The notes beneath the pieces were generated by a model. It made no database searches and was not told the DNA's origin. It saw only the letters and a list, made by a program, of their open reading frames with translations. The translations under genes and the position numbers were made by a program. 40,623 nucleotides of DNA from Candidatus Harrysmithiimonas galli (lineage in GTDB: Bacteria; Bacillota; Bacilli; CAJFEE01): positions 1 through 40,623 of the forward strand of contig CAJFEE010000024.1 in the NCBI GenBank assembly GCA_904373265.1, written 5' to 3'. Numbering within the stretch: the stretch's first letter is position 1; every line of letters begins with the position of its first letter. Shown in pieces: positions 28,639-36,422 of this stretch.

Positions 28639-29715
28639 TTAAGATAAATGCTGTTTAGAAAGAACCAGTCTTTTCACCAAATCGGAAAGCTCCTTTTGTG
28701 ACAAATCATATGACACACATTGAAGCTGAATCCATTGATTCCCAATAATCATTTCTGCAGCATACCGAGAATTTTCTGCTTCCGGATAAATATAAATAAC
28801 CTGTCCTTCTAATTCAAGTGGTTCAAAAAACGCAGTACCGCTCGGATTTTTCAAAAATAAAAACTGTGCAGATAAACGCTCCCTTTCTGTCTTATCAATT
28901 ACCGTTTGACGCAACAAAAACGCATCTTTCTCTTCACCATAAGCATAAGATGTCTCAATGGACATTCCAATTCCTTCTCCTTGAATTTGATAGCTAATCG
29001 GCTCTACTGGAATGCTGTCTGCATGACTCTTTGCAAAAATATAAATATCATTAGAAAATTGCTGATAAATATTCTCCAAATGAAAAGGTTCCGGTCCTGA
29101 AACAACTGATGCTTCTTCAATCATCTCCATCTCTTGTTCTACACTTTGAACGCTCGTCTTCTCTCCGACTGCAGGCAAAGATATCTCCGGATCAGAAACA
29201 TCTGAAGACTCTGCAACCCAAACAGTTGAGGATGCAGCAGAATCTTTTGGATGTTGAACCGGATCTTCCTCTGACTGATTGGTTTGTGGTACAGCATTCT
29301 GATCTTCTTTGACAACTTGTGATACAACATTCTGATTTTCTGGCTCCAAAACCTCTTTAGTTTCTTGAATTGGACTCTCTGCCAATTGCGGAGTTTCTTG
29401 CTCCACATGTTTTGGATTTGTTTTTGTTTCTTTACTTTCATTATTTAAGAAAATACTTTCCATACGTTCCTTCACATCGCCTAATTCAGCAAAAGGAACC
29501 GTTTGACTGGTGTAAACAAAATAACCAAAACCGATACACAAAATGGCTGCCGCACTGGCGCCCCATTTTCGATAGGAAAATACAGGCTTTTTCTTGGAAG
29601 GCAAATTTGCTAATGCTTGCTGCCATTTTTCTTCAACTAAATCCGGAATATGAATGGATTCTTCCTGAAGTCTTTTCTTAATCTCTTGATCCAGCCTATT
29701 TTCTTCCCTTTTCAT
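28639..29715 (-). CDS. Putative anti-sigma factor, single-span membrane protein
   Basis: This 358-residue protein has a short cytoplasmic N terminus (1-48, EENRLDQEIKKRLQEE, VEEKWQQALANLPSK), one membrane helix (about 50-68, SAAAILCIGFGYFVYTS), a long Glu/Gln/Pro/Ser-rich linker (about 85-205) and a folded outer domain (about 220-350) ending in QLQCVSYDLSQKELSDLVKR. The start overlaps the sigma-factor gene by 20 bp. A membrane protein directly coupled to an ECF sigma gene is usually its anti-sigma factor. No zinc-binding ZAS motif (HxxxCxxC) is present, so it belongs to another class; the outer domain may resemble DUF4367. The function is inferred from position and topology. Confidence 0.7.
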   Translation of the reverse strand: MKREENRLDQEIKKRLQEESIHIPDLVEEKWQQALANLPSKKKPVFSYRKWGASAAAILCIGFGYFVYTSQTVPFAELGDVKERMESIFLNNESKETKTNPKHVEQETPQLAESPIQETKEVLEPENQNVVSQVVKEDQNAVPQTNQSEEDPVQHPKDSAASSTVWVAESSDVSDPEISLPAVGEKTSVQSVEQEMEMIEEASVVSGPEPFHLENIYQQFSNDIYIFAKSHADSIPVEPISYQIQGEGIGMSIETSYAYGEEKDAFLLRQTVIDKTERERLSAQFLFLKNPSGTAFFEPLELEGQVIYIYPEAENSRYAAEMIIGNQWIQLQCVSYDLSQKELSDLVKRLVLSKQHLS

Positions 29716-30259
29716 CTGCTTGATCTCCCTCCAATCTTAATAAATTTCTTAATCTGTTGCGTCCACGATTCAATCGGGTTCGAACGGTACTTTCAGGAAT
29801 GCCCAACATTTTGGAAATGGTCTGACAGGAATGATCTTCATAATAAAACAATACAATCACCTGTGCGATCTCCTTTGGAAGCTTCTGAACCTGTTCAAAA
29901 ATTCCTTGTCCCTCATAAAATTTTTCTTCTTTTATTAACAAATCGGAGGCAAATTCCTCCACTGGGATTATTCTTTGACTTTTTCTTAAAATATTAATAC
30001 ATTCATGAATCATAATCCGGGTCAACCATGTCTTAAAATATAAATTCTCCCGCACTTTATGAATCGAATGAAATGCCTTTAATATTGTTTCTTGCATCGC
30101 ATCGGCAACATCTTCGTCAGATTTTAAATAACTTTTACCGACTTTATACAGCGACAGCTTATGTGCCTCCATCAATCGAACAAACGCATCGGAGTCCCCA
30201 GACTTGGCCAAATCAATATCATCTTTTTCTTTTGATATTTTCTTTGGAGGAAAAAACAT
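29696..30259 (-). CDS. ECF-type RNA polymerase sigma factor
   Basis: A 187-residue sigma factor with only regions 2 and 4. Region 2 (about 17-90) includes LAKSGDSDAFVRLMEAHK, YLKSDEDVADAMQETILKAF and the DNA-melting segment YFKTWLTRIMIHECINILRK. Region 4 (about 120-178) includes KLPKEIAQVIVLFYYEDHS and the helix-turn-helix ISKMLGIPESTVRTRLNRGR. I choose ATG 30259, eight bases after AAGGG; an in-frame GTG at 30268 overlaps that site. It resembles SigV/SigM-type envelope stress factors. An ECF-type promoter lies just upstream and the putative anti-sigma gene overlaps its end. Confidence 0.92.
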   Translation of the reverse strand: MFFPPKKISKEKDDIDLAKSGDSDAFVRLMEAHKLSLYKVGKSYLKSDEDVADAMQETILKAFHSIHKVRENLYFKTWLTRIMIHECINILRKSQRIIPVEEFASDLLIKEEKFYEGQGIFEQVQKLPKEIAQVIVLFYYEDHSCQTISKMLGIPESTVRTRLNRGRNRLRNLLRLEGDQADEKGRK

Positions 30260-30281
30260 AACTTTCACCCTTCTTTTATTA

Positions 30282-30414: not shown

Positions 30415-30787
30415 ATGACGATATCATTTCAATGTAAAACTTATACTCTTAATTTAGCCTTAAAATACATTTTTGTCTACCAAACCAAAGTATTTTTTAA
30501 CATTTCCATTAGAGCATTGGACATGCATATTTTTCTAACATCATATAGATGTAAGAAGATCGTAACGATTGAAAAGACAAAATACAATGATAAATATATA
30601 AAAGCTTTTTTATAAAAATTGCTTTTTATTCTGATAAACTTTCTATACCAAGCGTGAAAAATAAAGTACTGGATTTCAAAAATACAAATGAAACTTTACA
30701 AATACATCAATAAAATGGATTTACACCTTTGAAAGGAAACGTTAAACTAAAAGAAAATACCCTACAAAAAGAAAGCGAGAATTGTGT

Positions 30788-31213
30788 ATGAAAATTGCAG
30801 TGATTGACGGTTCAGGTGGCGGAATCGGACGGTTGCTTATCGAAAAACTCGTTCAAACCTTCAGTAACCAAATTCAAATTATTGCACTTGGAACCAATGC
30901 ACTGGCAACAGCAGCCATGCTCAAAGCTGGTGCTAACGAAGGCGCAACCGGAGAAAATGCACTCATTTGGAATGTCTCACGCGTCCAGCTTATTATCGGA
31001 CCCATCAGCATTTTATCACCGAACGCCATGCTTGGTGAGTTGACACCAAAAATGGCTACCGCAATTTCTGACAGTCCCGCAAAAAAAATTGTGATTCCGC
31101 TTTCCAAATGGAATGTGCAAATTGCCGGTTTGGAAAAAAAACCATTGCCGCACTATGCTGAAGATATTGTAGAAGCTGTAAGTCAAATTTTACGAGGTGA
31201 AGAAAATGTGTGA
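30788..31213 (+). CDS. DUF3842 family protein
   Basis: A 141-residue soluble protein beginning MKIAVIDGSGGGIGRLLIEK, a Rossmann-like glycine-rich loop, followed by QIIALGTNALATAAMLKAGA and SPNAMLGELTPKMATAISDS. This pattern is that of DUF3842, a small family without known function, often beside cooT or metal-related genes in anaerobes. I choose ATG 30788 because the sequence then starts exactly at the family N terminus; an in-frame TTG at 30782 is possible. The upstream site is weak. A weak promoter (TTGAAA 30729, GAAAAT 30752, 17-bp spacing) lies ahead. It overlaps cooT by 8 bp. Nucleotide or cofactor binding is a reasonable guess. Confidence 0.75.
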   Translation: MKIAVIDGSGGGIGRLLIEKLVQTFSNQIQIIALGTNALATAAMLKAGANEGATGENALIWNVSRVQLIIGPISILSPNAMLGELTPKMATAISDSPAKKIVIPLSKWNVQIAGLEKKPLPHYAEDIVEAVSQILRGEENV

Positions 31214-31397
31214 AGCAAATGTCTATCTTATAGACAAAGAAGGAAAAGAAAAACTATTTTTAGAATCGGTTGATAAATTTGTTCCACAAGGCAACACCAT
31301 TCATATGGAAAATATTTATGGTGAACGAAAAATCATTAAAGCAGATATCATTGAAATGAAACTGGTAGATCATCGAATTCTAATTGCTGAAAAATAA
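31206..31397 (+). CDS. cooT: CooT family nickel-binding protein
   Basis: A 63-residue protein beginning MCEANVYL, with NTIHMENIYGERKIIKADI and ending KLVDHRILIAEK, the CooT signature. In the characterised protein of Rhodospirillum, Cys2 binds Ni(II) in a dimer and assists nickel insertion into CO dehydrogenase. The start is ATG 31206, six bases after GAGGTG; a GTG at 31197 lies in that site. The gene overlaps the DUF3842 gene and is followed 230 bp later by a nickel/peptide-type ABC importer, which supports a nickel role for the whole stretch. Which nickel enzyme is served is not visible here. Confidence 0.85.
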   Translation: MCEANVYLIDKEGKEKLFLESVDKFVPQGNTIHMENIYGERKIIKADIIEMKLVDHRILIAEK

Positions 31398-31440: not shown

Positions 31441-31469
31441 TAGACAAACTGCCAAATATCCGATAGAAT
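31441..31469 (+). promoter_or_regulatory. Predicted promoter of the importer operon
   Basis: TAGACA (31441-31446) and TAGAAT (31464-31469) are 17 bp apart; an alternative -35 TTGACA lies at 31426. Transcription would start near 31476, about 150 bases before the first start codon. Confidence 0.5.
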
Positions 31470-31483
31470 AAAAAATGGAAATA

Positions 31484-31601
31484 CAATTCACGAAGAATTG
31501 CTAGAGAATAAAAAAACAAATGATGCACAAAATAAATATGCTCAGTCAAGAAGACCTGTGCACTACAGAATGTAGGCAAAAGGTCTTCTTATTTTTTTTT
31601 T
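31484..31601 (+). promoter_or_regulatory. Leader RNA with terminator: putative attenuator
   Basis: A small hairpin (CAATTC at 31484, GAATTG at 31495) is followed by a strong terminator: AAGAAGACCT (31548-31557) pairs with AGGTCTTCTT (31581-31590), with an inner stem CTACA/TGTAG (31563-31575), then a run of ten Ts (31592-31601). Only 25 bases remain before the ATG at 31627, taken up by the AAGGAGG site, so no separate promoter fits. The importer must therefore be transcribed through this terminator, the arrangement of a riboswitch or attenuator. It does not match the NiCo riboswitch as I know it. Confidence 0.55.
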
Positions 31602-31626
31602 GCATGTAAAATAAGGAGGAAAAATC

Positions 31627-33204
31627 ATGAAAAAAATGGTCCATTCCATTGTCAGTATACTATGTGTAGGCATTTTGTTACTTGCTGGTTGCAGCAACAA
31701 TCAATCCAATGGAAATGCCAACAACGCAACAAATCAACCGAAAACAGAAATTGTCGTTGCATTAACTTCTGAACCAGATGGTGGATTTGATCCAGTGCTT
31801 GGCTATGCAGCATATGGTTCTCCACTGATTCAAAGTACATTGCTTGATCTAAATGAGGAAGCGGAAATTACAAAAGATTTAGCAACCGATTATACCGTCA
31901 GCGAAGATGGGAAAACATGGACATTCTCTCTACGTGAGGATGTTAAATTTACAGATAATGAACCATTAACAGCGGAAGATGTTGTTTTTACATATGAAAG
32001 TGCGAAAAACAGCGGCTCAACTGTTGATTTGGTCCAAATGAAATCAGTAAAGGCACTGAATGACTATACCGTTGAATTTACACTTATGCAGCCACAATCC
32101 ACCTTTTTATTTACCACAGCTTCCATTGGAATTGTTCCAAAGCATGCCTATAGCAGCAGTTATGGACAAAATCCGATCGGATCAGGACCCTATAAAGTTT
32201 TGGAATACAAGCAAGGTCAGCAGGTCATCTTTGTCAAAAACGAAGACTACTACGGAACAAAAGGAAATTTTGAGAAAGTAACCGTTCTATTTATGAGTGA
32301 AGACCAAGCCTTCGCTGCTGCAAAATCTGGACAAGTCGATGTCGCACAAACCAATCAGACTTATGCCAAAGAAACGGTAAATGCGATGGATCTCCAAAAA
32401 TTCCAAACCGTAGATAATCGAGGAATTTCCTTTATCACCATTCCATCCGGTTCAGAAATCAATGGTCATCCTGCTGGAAACGATGTAACCAGTCAGCTTG
32501 AAATTCGCCAGGCTATTAATTTGGCACTGAATCGTGAGGCACTTGTGACTGATGCCTTAGAAGGCTTTGGTCGTGCTGCATACAGCAATGTTGACCATTT
32601 ACCATGGTGGAACGAAAATACAGTAATTACGCAAAATGTAGACAAAGCCAAACAAATTTTAAGCAATGCCGGCTGGAAAGATACAGACAATGACGGAATT
32701 TTAGAAAAAAATAGATTGAAAGCACAATTTGATTTATACTACAATGCAGGGGACGGAGCACGGCAAGCCCTAGTCAATGCTGTCACACAACAGTTAAAGG
32801 AAATTGGGATTCACGTCAATCCGATTGGCGGCTCATGGGATGATATTGAAAGAGGTATGTATGCCAATCCAGTTTTATTCGGATGGGGCAACCGAAATCC
32901 GATGGAACTGTATTACTTATATCACTCCAAAAACATCGGATTTGACTGGTATAACACAAACGCTTATAAAAATGAAGCAGTGGATCAAGCATTGGACAAA
33001 GCTTTAATTTCTGGGGATATGGCAGATTGGAAAAAAGCACAGGAGCCACTTATTGAGGATCTTCCCTGGGCTTGGCTTGTCAATGTCGATCATTTATATT
33101 TTGTCAATGAAAAGCTTTCTTTAGGAAACCAACCAATCCACCCCCATTCTCATGCATTGGATGTCCTTTGCAATTTGGAAGAATGGATCTGGAAATCCGA
33201 ATAA
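31627..33204 (+). CDS. Nickel/oligopeptide-type ABC substrate-binding lipoprotein (NikA/OppA family)
   Basis: A 525-residue lipoprotein (lipobox LLLAGCSNN, Cys22) of the SBP_bac_5 family: TSEPDGGFDPVLGYAAYG, TWTFSLREDVKFTDNEPLTA, GSGPYKVLEYKQGQ, IRQAINLALNREALVTDAL and VLFGWGNRNPMELYYLYHS. It captures nickel-chelate, peptide or a metallophore complex for the membrane complex encoded next. The preceding CooT and the shortness of the linked ATPases favour nickel (NikA/CntA-like) over oligopeptides, but this rests on context. A strong AAGGAGG site precedes the ATG. It is the first gene of a five-gene operon. Confidence 0.9.
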   Translation: MKKMVHSIVSILCVGILLLAGCSNNQSNGNANNATNQPKTEIVVALTSEPDGGFDPVLGYAAYGSPLIQSTLLDLNEEAEITKDLATDYTVSEDGKTWTFSLREDVKFTDNEPLTAEDVVFTYESAKNSGSTVDLVQMKSVKALNDYTVEFTLMQPQSTFLFTTASIGIVPKHAYSSSYGQNPIGSGPYKVLEYKQGQQVIFVKNEDYYGTKGNFEKVTVLFMSEDQAFAAAKSGQVDVAQTNQTYAKETVNAMDLQKFQTVDNRGISFITIPSGSEINGHPAGNDVTSQLEIRQAINLALNREALVTDALEGFGRAAYSNVDHLPWWNENTVITQNVDKAKQILSNAGWKDTDNDGILEKNRLKAQFDLYYNAGDGARQALVNAVTQQLKEIGIHVNPIGGSWDDIERGMYANPVLFGWGNRNPMELYYLYHSKNIGFDWYNTNAYKNEAVDQALDKALISGDMADWKKAQEPLIEDLPWAWLVNVDHLYFVNEKLSLGNQPIHPHSHALDVLCNLEEWIWKSE

Positions 33205-33223
33205 AGAAATGTTGGGCTGACTT

Positions 33224-34201
33224 ATGGTAAAAAAAATATTGTATTTTTGGATGCGAGGGCTTTCCCTCCTCCTTTTTGTTGTCATTTTTGCTTTTATTTT
33301 ACTGATGTTTTCTCCAATTGATCCGATTCAATCTTATGTTGGAGCCGGAACAGCCATATCACCAGAACAGAAAGAAAACATTGCTGAATATTGGGGACTA
33401 AACGATCCCCCGCTTGAAAGATTGATCACATGGGCAACCCATCTTTTACAAGGAGATCTGGGTGTCTCTATGATTTATCGGCAAGATGTAATAGAAGTCA
33501 TCCAAAATAAATTCCTTTTATCCGTTTCATTGATGCTTGTTGCATGGATTTTAGGCGGCTTTTTCGGTGTTCTGTCCGGATTGATTATGGGCATATATCG
33601 CAGCAGATGGATAGATCGTATTCTAAAAAGCATTTGCTATACACTAACAGCCATCCCTTCTTACTATCTTGGAATTTTATTGTTAATGATTTTTGCGGTT
33701 TTCCTTCAATGGTTTCCGATCGGATTAGCTGGTCCCATCGGAATTCCCGAAAATGAGGTCACATTCGGACAACGCATTTGGCATATGATATTGCCTGCTC
33801 TTTGTTTATCGGTTATCAGCATACCAACTATAGCCTTACATACACGAACTAAGCTACTAGAGGCTCTGGATAGTGATTATGCTGATTATGCACGTGCACG
33901 TGGAGAAAGCGAATATACCATCGTTACACGACAATGTTTACGAAACGTGCTGCTGCCAGCAACCATGATTCAATTCGCGATGTTTTCAGAGTTATTTGGC
34001 GGCTCTGTGCTTGTAGAACAGGTATTTTCCTATCCTGGCTTGGGTCAAGCAACCGTAACAGCCGGTCTTGGCGGTGATATGCCACTATTGCTCGGAATTA
34101 CGATTTTCAGTGCAATTTTTGTCTTTATTGGAAATGCCATTGGTGATCTGGTGATGTGCCGAATTGATCCAAGAATTTGGAAAAGGAGATCTGCACGATG
34201 A
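33224..34201 (+). CDS. ABC importer permease 1 (NikB/DppB family)
   Basis: A 325-residue permease with six membrane helices. The N-terminal part shows FAFILLMFSPIDPIQSYVGA and WGLNDPPLERLITWATHLLQ, typical of DppB/NikB proteins; the coupling loop is DYADYARARGESEYTIVTRQ. The C-terminal part FGGSVLVEQVFSYPGLGQAT is the family hallmark. It forms a heterodimer with permease 2. The start lies 19 bp behind the binding-protein gene. Its stop overlaps the next start (ATGA), which shows translational coupling. Confidence 0.92.
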   Translation: MVKKILYFWMRGLSLLLFVVIFAFILLMFSPIDPIQSYVGAGTAISPEQKENIAEYWGLNDPPLERLITWATHLLQGDLGVSMIYRQDVIEVIQNKFLLSVSLMLVAWILGGFFGVLSGLIMGIYRSRWIDRILKSICYTLTAIPSYYLGILLLMIFAVFLQWFPIGLAGPIGIPENEVTFGQRIWHMILPALCLSVISIPTIALHTRTKLLEALDSDYADYARARGESEYTIVTRQCLRNVLLPATMIQFAMFSELFGGSVLVEQVFSYPGLGQATVTAGLGGDMPLLLGITIFSAIFVFIGNAIGDLVMCRIDPRIWKRRSAR

Positions 34202-35025
34202 AACGGTTTTTAAATAATCGTAGAAAAAAAACACGATTTCTCGTTTATATATTGTCTGGAATTATCGCATGCATTTATTTGGGCGGAATGTTTGTTTCGG
34301 AATCGATGTACGAAGCCAATTTTCAGATAAAAAATACAGCGCCTTCCTTGAATCATCTGTTTGGAACTGATTTTCTTGGACGAGACATGCTTTTTCGCAC
34401 TTGGAAAGGACTGTGTACCAGCTTAACTGTTGGATTTTGTGCAGCGTGTATCAGTGCCTGTATCGCTTTAGTATTTGGCATAATAGCTGGATTATGGAAA
34501 ACCGCCGACCGAGTGATTTCATGGTTGACCGATTTGTTTCTTGCAATTCCACATCTAATCCTTGTGATTTTAATTTCCATTGCACTTGGAAAAGGAACCG
34601 TAGGCGTGTTGATTGGTGTCGCTTTTACACATTGGCCTTCACTAACAAGAATTATTCGAGCAGAAGTATTGTCGCTAAAACAGAGACCGTTTATTGAAAG
34701 TGCAGCGAAATTTGGACAATCCAAATGGAGTATTGGTAAAAAACATCTTATGCCACATGTATTACCACAATTTATCATTGGAACGCTTGTAATTTTTCCA
34801 CATGCGATTTTGCATGAATCTTCTATTACTTTTTTGGGCTTTGGCTTAGCACCTGAGCAACCAGCAATCGGTATTATCTTATCAGAATCACTCAAATATA
34901 TTACAAGTGGGTACTGGTGGCTTGCTCTTTTCCCAGGTACAATACTCATACTGATCATCCTTTTATTTGACACACTCGGGGAACAAATCTCCAAGCTACA
35001 AAATCCAAAGAAAGCGAGAGAATAA
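34198..35025 (+). CDS. ABC importer permease 2 (NikC/DppC family)
   Basis: A 275-residue permease with an N-terminal helix and five further spans. LFGTDFLGRDMLFRTWKGLC is the DppC/NikC entry motif; FIESAAKFGQSKWSIGKKHL is the ATPase-coupling loop, and HESSITFLGFGLAPEQPAIG is another strong family mark. I choose ATG 34198, which overlaps the previous stop and has GGAG nine bases upstream, rather than the longer reading from 34177. The last residues overlap nothing; the ATPase gene starts 3 bp later. Confidence 0.93.
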   Translation: MKRFLNNRRKKTRFLVYILSGIIACIYLGGMFVSESMYEANFQIKNTAPSLNHLFGTDFLGRDMLFRTWKGLCTSLTVGFCAACISACIALVFGIIAGLWKTADRVISWLTDLFLAIPHLILVILISIALGKGTVGVLIGVAFTHWPSLTRIIRAEVLSLKQRPFIESAAKFGQSKWSIGKKHLMPHVLPQFIIGTLVIFPHAILHESSITFLGFGLAPEQPAIGIILSESLKYITSGYWWLALFPGTILILIILLFDTLGEQISKLQNPKKARE

Positions 35026-35028
35026 ATC

Positions 35029-35799
35029 ATGAAAGAGCCCGTTTTTTCTGTGAAAAATTTCTCAGTCTCTTTCACAACCTATGAAAGCGGATTGAGACAA
35101 AAAGTAGTACAGGCCGTTCATAATTTAGAAACTGTCATAAACCATGGTGAAATTTTAGCCATTGCTGGTGCTTCTGGCTCTGGAAAAAGTTTACTGGCAC
35201 ATGCAATTTTTGGAATCTTACCAGGAAACGCTGTTATAAAAGGAGATATGTTTTTTCTTGGAGAACCACTGACAAAGCAAAAAATTTATGCTCTTCGCGG
35301 AAAACAAATGGCACTTATTCCACAGTCCGTTTCTTATTTGAATCCACTGATGAAAGTTGGAAAATCTGCTGGAGAAAAAGCGTGTGCTTTATTTAAACGA
35401 TATGGTCTAGATGAACAGGTGAAAAATCTATATCCACATGAGTTATCTGGTGGTATGGCGCGTCGTGTACTCATTGCTACAGCCGCCGCAACCCCTGCAA
35501 AGCTAATTGTTGCCGATGAACCAACTGCCGGTCTGAATGGAACACTTGCACATAAAATTATGAAGCACTTGCGTGAGCTTGCTCAAGAAAACCGTGCCAT
35601 CCTATTGATCACACATGATTTATATTTGGCAGCACAATATGCCGATATAATTACAGTGATTCGAGATGGAGAAACCATTGAAACAGTTCGTATTGAAGAT
35701 TTAAAATCTGGACAAGCCAAAAATGATTACACAAGAAAACTTTGGCGGGCGCTGCCAGAGAATCAATTTTTTTCATATGAAAAGGAGACCTTACAATGA
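35029..35799 (+). CDS. ABC importer ATPase 1 (NikD/DppD family)
   Basis: A 256-residue nucleotide-binding subunit: Walker A GASGSGKS, LIPQSVSYLNPLMKVG (Q-loop), signature ELSGGMARRVLIA, Walker B LIVADEPTAGLN, switch His in LLITHDL. Standard DppD proteins are about 330 residues and end in a Cys-rich iron-sulfur region; that tail is missing here, as in NikD-like subunits. The start lies 3 bp after the permease stop. It forms a heterodimer with the next ATPase, whose start overlaps its stop. Confidence 0.92.
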   Translation: MKEPVFSVKNFSVSFTTYESGLRQKVVQAVHNLETVINHGEILAIAGASGSGKSLLAHAIFGILPGNAVIKGDMFFLGEPLTKQKIYALRGKQMALIPQSVSYLNPLMKVGKSAGEKACALFKRYGLDEQVKNLYPHELSGGMARRVLIATAAATPAKLIVADEPTAGLNGTLAHKIMKHLRELAQENRAILLITHDLYLAAQYADIITVIRDGETIETVRIEDLKSGQAKNDYTRKLWRALPENQFFSYEKETLQ

Positions 35800-36422
35800 A
35801 TTCACTTATACTTCAAAAGGTCAGCTTTTCTTATGCAAAACATCAAATTTTACATGAGGCCTCTTTTTCGATCCAAAAAGGAATGTGCACAGCACTTTTG
35901 GGCCCAAGCGGGACAGGAAAAACAACCGTCGGACGGATTTTAGCAGGTTATGAAGTTCCAGATTGTGGCATGGTTCAAATGAATGAACAACCTTTGCCCA
36001 AAAAAGGATACTGCCCAGTGCAATTAATTGGTCAACATCCACAGTTGGCCTTTGATGAACGGATGAAAATGAAAAACAGCTTAAAAGAAGCCGGCATGCC
36101 ACCAGAAAATTACAAAAAACTACTGAAACAGATTGGCATTCCTTCATCCTGGCTAGATCGGTTTCCCATTGAACTTTCTGGTGGTGAATTGCAACGTTTG
36201 GCCATTTTTCGGGCATTGCATCCAAACACACAATATCTGATTGCTGATGAGTTGAGTGCCATGCTCGATGCCATAACACAGGCTGAATTATGGAGATTCC
36301 TTTTATCCATGGTCCAAACAAGAGAGCTTGGCATTTTGATGATCACACATAACTATGCACTCGCCGAAAAGACTTGTCAAAGAATTTTTCAATTAAAAAA
36401 TAAAAAAATTATTCCATTATGA
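35796..36422 (+). CDS. ABC importer ATPase 2 (NikE/DppF family), short
   Basis: At 208 residues this is shorter than usual for the family (about 260). Walker A GPSGTGKTT, signature ELSGGELQRLAIFRAL, Walker B YLIADELSAMLD (Leu instead of the common Pro after DE) and switch His in LMITHNYA are all present, so it should be active. The ATGA overlap with the previous gene and the AAAGGAG site support the start. It ends the operon. The missing C-terminal part is a regulatory or docking extension in larger relatives. Confidence 0.9.
   Translation: MNSLILQKVSFSYAKHQILHEASFSIQKGMCTALLGPSGTGKTTVGRILAGYEVPDCGMVQMNEQPLPKKGYCPVQLIGQHPQLAFDERMKMKNSLKEAGMPPENYKKLLKQIGIPSSWLDRFPIELSGGELQRLAIFRALHPNTQYLIADELSAMLDAITQAELWRFLLSMVQTRELGILMITHNYALAEKTCQRIFQLKNKKIIPL

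Follow-up and report, generated by a model that had tools for sequence, protein, structure and literature searches.

Cis-acting RNA is linked to nickel and cobalt genes in the NiCo riboswitch (czcD), a large multi-helix aptamer that controls exporters. Hairpins of the CsrA/RsmA type, which carry an ANGGA loop motif and are read by a dimer, cover the ribosome site. Importers of the nikABCDE and nikMNQO types are under nickel control in the NikR regulon, where the control site is a DNA operator; fewer than half of the organisms that have NikABCDE also have NikR, from which NikR-independent regulation has been inferred (PMC2667541). In ANTAR-target RNAs (the eut, nasF and amiE leaders, targets of EutV, NasR and AmiR), a dimeric protein reads two small stem-loops with like loops, which lie ahead of an intrinsic terminator or overlap it and the second of which excludes it. 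The ANTAR criterion is a hexaloop whose first position is A and whose fourth is G (PMC3369931).

The leader analysed here lies in a 40,623-nucleotide stretch of DNA from Candidatus Harrysmithiimonas galli (the window), upstream of an ABC importer operon. It is of the intrinsic-terminator attenuator type: a promoter, an alternative hairpin (P2) and a terminator precede the gene, and P2 and the terminator are mutually exclusive, because the loop and 3' arm of P2 constitute the 5' arm of the terminator.

A terminator leader before a nickel-type importer

The order of genes in the window is DUF3842, cooT, leader, importer (Table 1), and the importer is a five-gene ABC system of the nickel/peptide family that spans positions 31627-36422. 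The closest solved relative of its substrate-binding protein (SBP) is the nickel-binding protein YntA (PDB 4ofl/3ry3, E about 1e-115); the SBP does not reach the cutoff of any NCBIfam nickel equivalog, and nickel is thus the best candidate for the substrate, though others are possible. To our knowledge, the one role under which CooT has been described is that of a CO-dehydrogenase accessory protein. The predicted model of CooT (pLDDT 93.5) matches CooT structures with Z scores of 12.6 (6fan) and 9.8, and Cys2 is kept in 17 of 17 aligned sequences; CooT binds nickel with a Kd of 9 nM (PMC6006190). A PDB search with DUF3842 returned no relative. In two other loci (L134 and L135, from genomes G018 and G038), DUF3842 and CooT occupy one open frame of 213/212 aa, which would support a joint function. 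Divergent from DUF3842-cooT are a gene for an ECF-type sigma factor and, after it, a gene for a membrane-anchored protein that may be an anti-sigma factor.

Table 1. Features of the window (positions), and genes found behind the leader in other genomes (loci).
Feature	Position or locus	Strand	Details
Sigma factor and membrane-anchored protein genes	28639-30268	-	assigned by reading only
ECF-type sigma factor gene	29696-30268	-	assigned by reading only
DUF3842 gene, partner of cooT	30782-31213	+	PF12953, E 2e-53
cooT, small nickel-binding accessory protein	31206-31397	+	PF10133, E 1e-21
Leader promoter	31441-31469	+	TAGACA-17 nt-TAGAAT, 10/12 consensus match
Hairpin P1	31484-31500	+	CAAUUC-ACGAA-GAAUUG, 6 bp, pentaloop ANGRA
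Hairpin P2 (antiterminator)	31539-31562	+	UGCUCAGUC-AAGAA-GACCUGUGCA, bulged
Intrinsic terminator	31548-31601	+	arms 31548-31567/31571-31590, T10 run 31592-31601
Apical hairpin P3	31563-31575	+	CUAC-AGAAU-GUAG, compatible with both folds
Ribosome binding site of importer gene	31613-31619	+	AAGGAGG
SBP_bac_5 substrate-binding lipoprotein, nickel-type ABC importer	31627-33204	+	
Two permease genes	33224-35025	+	33224-34201, 34177-35025
Two ATPase genes, NikD/NikE-like	35029-36422	+	35029-35799, 35796-36422
CbiM/NikM with PDGLE	L180, L187, L204, L215, L251, L265		
SBP_bac_5 importers or their permeases	L178, L208, L213, L218, L220		
CooT	L201c		
DUF4198	L201b, L228		L228 before a NikK-like/NikL-like pair
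FmdE	L203, L211, L230, L254		
Peripla_BP_2	L207, L264		
LarE, then a LarB-like gene	L179		LarE over curated cutoff
Methyltransferases adjoining ABC or ECF genes	L205, L206, L209, L214, L219, L252		
One ECF S-component family, a large set	L185, L190, L193, L197, L217, L247-L250, L255 and others		LLPMHIPVLLCGF motif

Transcription of the leader is expected to start near position 31476. The region of P1 (31476-31505) has a fold of -4.3 kcal/mol. P2 is the fold obtained without the 3' arm of the terminator (-6.0 kcal/mol for 31540-31562), and the leader folds as P1-P2-P3 until that arm is present. P3 may alternatively pair as CUACA-GAA-UGUAG, and its loop falls outside the strict (A)NGRA definition used for the family count below. 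The terminator arms form an inverted repeat of 20 nt each with 80% complementarity; the stretch 31543-31600 folds with -22.9 kcal/mol and is matched by a covariance model, R2, for which the window leader was among the training sequences (36.3 bits, E 4.8e-4). A simple scan for terminators did not pick it up, probably owing to its bulges. The fold of the whole leader is -36.2, as compared with -23.8 ± 3.6 for shuffled sequences (z = -3.45; 0 of 200 shuffles as good).

An initial annotation, made from the letters of the window and their open reading frames, had claimed a strong terminator 25 nt before the first importer gene, with the ribosome site in the gap. The claim holds: 25 nt separate the end of the T-run from the ATG (31627), AAGGAGG lies between them, and the arms, T10 run and folding energy are those of a strong terminator. 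The annotation had also placed no promoter behind the terminator, and we find no promoter-like site between terminator and importer gene, the best nearby site being the one upstream of the leader; the importer therefore depends on read-through, as the annotation had held, and the transcript read through would be either that of the leader promoter or that of DUF3842-cooT upstream. Its view that the element is not a known riboswitch agrees with a search of Rfam, in which neither the window nor the leaders scanned gave a match at gathering score, and in which relaxed thresholds gave only chance-level matches to snoRNA and sRNA families. Comparison finds the leader conserved, with its attenuator build, across Clostridia and in some Bacilli.

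The leader family and covariation of P2

A first covariance model, R1, was trained only on leaders of SBP and cooT (CooT/DUF3842) genes plus one ABC-2 transporter locus, and was run on 391 Clostridia genomes. Matches at E ≤ 0.01 were obtained in 47 genomes, 38 of which were judged genuine once the sequence and the gene behind it had been read; the remaining nine were without P2 hairpin and plausible target. We collected 76 leaders, each with the P2 loop in the 5' arm of a terminator, and, as leaders were judged genuine partly by P2 loop and downstream gene, the tallies that follow are not fully blind. The P2 loops are ANGRA pentamers with an invariant closing C-G pair (48 leaders), and the P1 loops are ANGRA pentamers or NGAA tetramers. 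P1 is found in 40 of the 76 leaders, as compared with 2.0 expected and a maximum of 6 in 200 dinucleotide-preserving shuffles, and is absent by the same criterion from the other 36. The apical hairpin of the terminator carries an (A)NGRA loop in 17/69 leaders (2.0 in shuffles), and a sigma-70-like promoter (at least 9/12 consensus) lies upstream of 63 of the 76. The spacing from P1 to P2 is variable, from 18 to more than 100 nt, and there is no junction or conserved core.

Among 48 distinct P2 hairpins, 83% of cells pair, and both sides have changed in six of seven pairs. The covariation score is 0.476, as compared with 0.218 ± 0.023 when shuffled and at most 0.173 when slid. R1 contains the terminator pairs and not the P2 pairs, so that the P2 covariation is close to independent for leaders found by R1; training leaders were included in the P2 set, and matches that had no such loop were left out. 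Covariation is also seen in the terminator helix (0.359, as compared with 0.222 when shuffled). We conclude from the covariation that P2 is a real helix.

Individual leaders illustrate the pattern. In L112, from the Bacilli, P2 is AAACC-ACGAA-GGTTT and is followed by a terminator ending CCTCGTGGTTT; in L138-L140, P2 is GAAATC-ATGAA-GGTTTC and lies before cooT. Loci of homologous SBPs fall into two regulatory groups, one of them that of Paenibacillus (described below). In the other, a promoter and window-like hairpins are present in L009 and L012-L014 (Terrisporobacter, Clostridium sp. and Intestinibacter) and in the Bacilli loci L112 and L125, with an evident terminator leader in all of these but L125. 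A search for paired, close hairpins with ANGAA pentaloops on both strands of approximately 0.8 Mb of loci returned six such leaders (that of the window among them), as well as L071 and a few unrelated places. At L071:924-1100 (Desulfovirgula), two tandem leaders, each with its own terminator, precede an operon of ABC-2 type, after which comes an SBP.

In the window genome (G000; Bacilli, 2.7 Mb, 100% complete), the window leader is the sole genuine R2 match, a second match being without P2 hairpin. In eleven other Bacilli genomes that have a homologous SBP, R2 gave no genuine leader; a DNA similarity search for the leader within its own family gave only short AT-rich matches, and viral contigs gave no relative. 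Matches to R1 or R2 without P2 hairpin, which mostly precede unrelated genes or none, were dropped as chance (L181, L184, L189, L194-L196, L216, L227, L229, L233, L235, L241, L256, L258 and L259), and L246 (loop ATGAA, unclear gene) was left out.

Genes behind the leader

R1 reached gene classes outside its training, namely CbiM/NikM, NikK-like DUF4198, LarE, FmdE, ECF S-components and methyltransferase operons, and R2 added more (Table 1). Representatives of the target families were checked by Pfam and NCBIfam, and the others were assigned by sequence likeness. LarE makes a nickel cofactor. The ECF S-component family with the LLPMHIPVLLCGF motif is the commonest gene behind the leader in CooT-less Clostridia, and its position there predicts that it carries nickel (or cobalt). 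Taken together, the targets likely constitute a nickel (or nickel/cobalt) regulon with nickel as signal; for CbiM, the unassigned ECF S-components and Peripla_BP_2, the cargo could be cobalt or another metal.

The FmdE-family genes lie immediately behind the leader, and some have a DksA/TraR zinc finger; at several of the FmdE loci the next genes encode ABC transporters (Peripla_BP_2, SBP_bac_5 or FecCD-like permease type). Small SAM methyltransferases repeatedly occupy the first position (in L231, L234 and L242, and in the six methyltransferase loci of Table 1: L205, L206, L209, L214, L219 and L252), often beside ABC or ECF importers, and perhaps serve a metallophore or cofactor step. In genome G663, a cobalamin riboswitch (L201:9304-9503, minus strand) occurs in the same region as three nickel-type leaders and cooT.

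Searches of open-access papers returned no description of nickel antitermination or of a nickel leader RNA in Clostridia. The lack of any Rfam match, together with the position of the leader before many nickel-handling genes, indicates that nickel uptake is probably turned on and off here by a means not yet described. Many nickel-using anaerobes carry such importers without a known regulator; the leader predicts nickel cargo for transporters such as the recurrent ECF S-component, defines a regulon, and provides a bait for the sensor.

Reading of the leader and comparison with known systems

We propose, with a probability of roughly 70%, that the element is a conserved leader through which transcription attenuation governs a nickel-uptake regulon, and that a trans-acting protein reads it. 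RNA polymerase would start from the promoter upstream of the leader. As sequence comparison shows, the nascent RNA can form P1 and P2, small hairpins with (A)NGRA loops, of which P2 excludes the terminator. According to the proposal, with nickel sufficient, P2 would not be held and the terminator would stop transcription before the importer; with nickel scarce, the protein would bind P1 and P2, and perhaps P3, and would hold P2, so that polymerase passes. The default would be termination, and the signal would be nickel, possibly cobalt. Read-through is assigned to low nickel because the downstream genes are importers. The repetition of the recognised hairpin suggests that the reader is probably dimeric, as ANTAR proteins are.

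The initial annotation had offered two mechanisms, that the leader senses something such as nickel or that a protein prevents termination. A response to metal is likely, given the nickel genes downstream. As to the means, conservation lies in two or three small hairpins that stand apart and share a loop, and little between them is conserved; an antiterminating protein thus fits better than a riboswitch.

A candidate for the reader, in organisms that have it, is a CooT dimer whose apo form binds the P1 and P2 loops and antiterminates and whose nickel-loaded form lets go, an assignment that we regard as tentative and on balance unlikely. CooT belongs to PF10133, at one time named a predicted RNA-binding family, but a fold search with the CooT model gave no clear RNA-binding match, and only a weak likeness to the RimM barrel and to the ATP synthase epsilon subunit. 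The cooT gene adjoins the leader in the window and in G547, a genome of another class, both of which have the gene order DUF3842-cooT-leader-SBP; the element also lies before cooT in G398-G402, G663, G703 and G775, and before DUF3842-cooT in G547, and its position before cooT, in at least eight genomes, looks like autoregulation. However, in a survey of 29 Clostridia cooT loci the element is directly before cooT only in L149 and L161, and proximity to cooT is therefore not general. CooT is present in 8/8 leader-bearing genomes and 0/12 comparison genomes, a difference confounded by anaerobic lifestyle, and is enriched in leader-bearing Clostridia (counts 11, 27, 32 and 321; odds ratio 4.1, p 0.001). 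Yet 27 of the 38 leader-bearing Clostridia genomes have no PF10133 match, which rules out CooT as a universal reader, and 32 of the 43 CooT-bearing Clostridia gave no leader match; CooT may be merely a regulated nickel-handling gene. A still more doubtful extension is that CooT is the nickel-sensing RNA-binding protein of a new antitermination system, in which it would recognise (A)NGRA hairpins in tandem and so regulate both cooT and the nickel importers, with a counterpart taking its place in CooT-less Clostridia. If CooT is the reader, the role of CooT is explained too.

Direct binding of nickel or cobalt by the RNA, with metal favouring the terminator, appears improbable. Metal riboswitches such as NiCo exist, and the leader is compact and strictly associated with metal genes; but it matches neither NiCo nor any other Rfam family, its conservation sits in the loops of separate hairpins at variable spacing rather than in a junction or core, and P1 is not found in about half of leaders.

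It is very unlikely that the element is an ordinary insulating terminator with constitutive read-through, its likeness to other leaders being incidental. Terminators near gene starts are common, and P2 of the window is bulged and much weaker than the terminator (-6 vs. -22.9 kcal/mol), as expected if a bound protein is needed, and compatible also with default termination and no regulation. Against this explanation stand the promoter-leader-terminator arrangement, the P2 covariation, the excess of P1 and the repeated association with nickel genes. The probability that the leader is a target of an ANTAR protein of the EutV/NasR type is close to negligible: the plan is the same, a pair of small hairpins whose loops are conserved and of which the second overlaps a terminator (PMC3369931), but the loops are ANGRA pentaloops or NGAA tetraloops, not hexaloops with A1 and G4. 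Of 25 other leader-bearing genomes searched, 8 have no ANTAR protein (PF03861), and neither has the window genome, where an ANTAR reader is accordingly rejected, barring a highly diverged ANTAR domain.

The proposed protein-read attenuator can be set beside each of the known systems. ANGGA loops as in CsrA/RsmA hairpins occur in L136, L201b, L202 and L240, whereas most leader loops are ANGAA without GGA, as are those of the window (ACGAA and AAGAA), and the leader hairpin competes with a terminator. The NikR regulon resembles the family in its nickel-controlled importers but works through a DNA operator, not an RNA leader; NikR (PF08753) is absent from G000, control genomes having given matches, and was rejected as the regulator here. 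Paenibacillus homologues of the SBP (L002-L007) have NikR-type boxes, GTGTTAC-N14-GTAACAC, at the promoter, exact in L007 and imperfect in the others, and no terminator leader, which suggests that different lineages may control the same importer at the level of DNA or of RNA. The NiCo riboswitch is likewise a cis-acting RNA linked to nickel and cobalt genes, but the targets here are importers and the hairpins are small and separate. With ANTAR targets the leader shares the pair of small hairpins and the exclusion of the terminator by the second, and differs in its longer stems and nickel-type targets. The plan is thus that of ANTAR-type antitermination, with a different loop, different proteins present and a different regulon.
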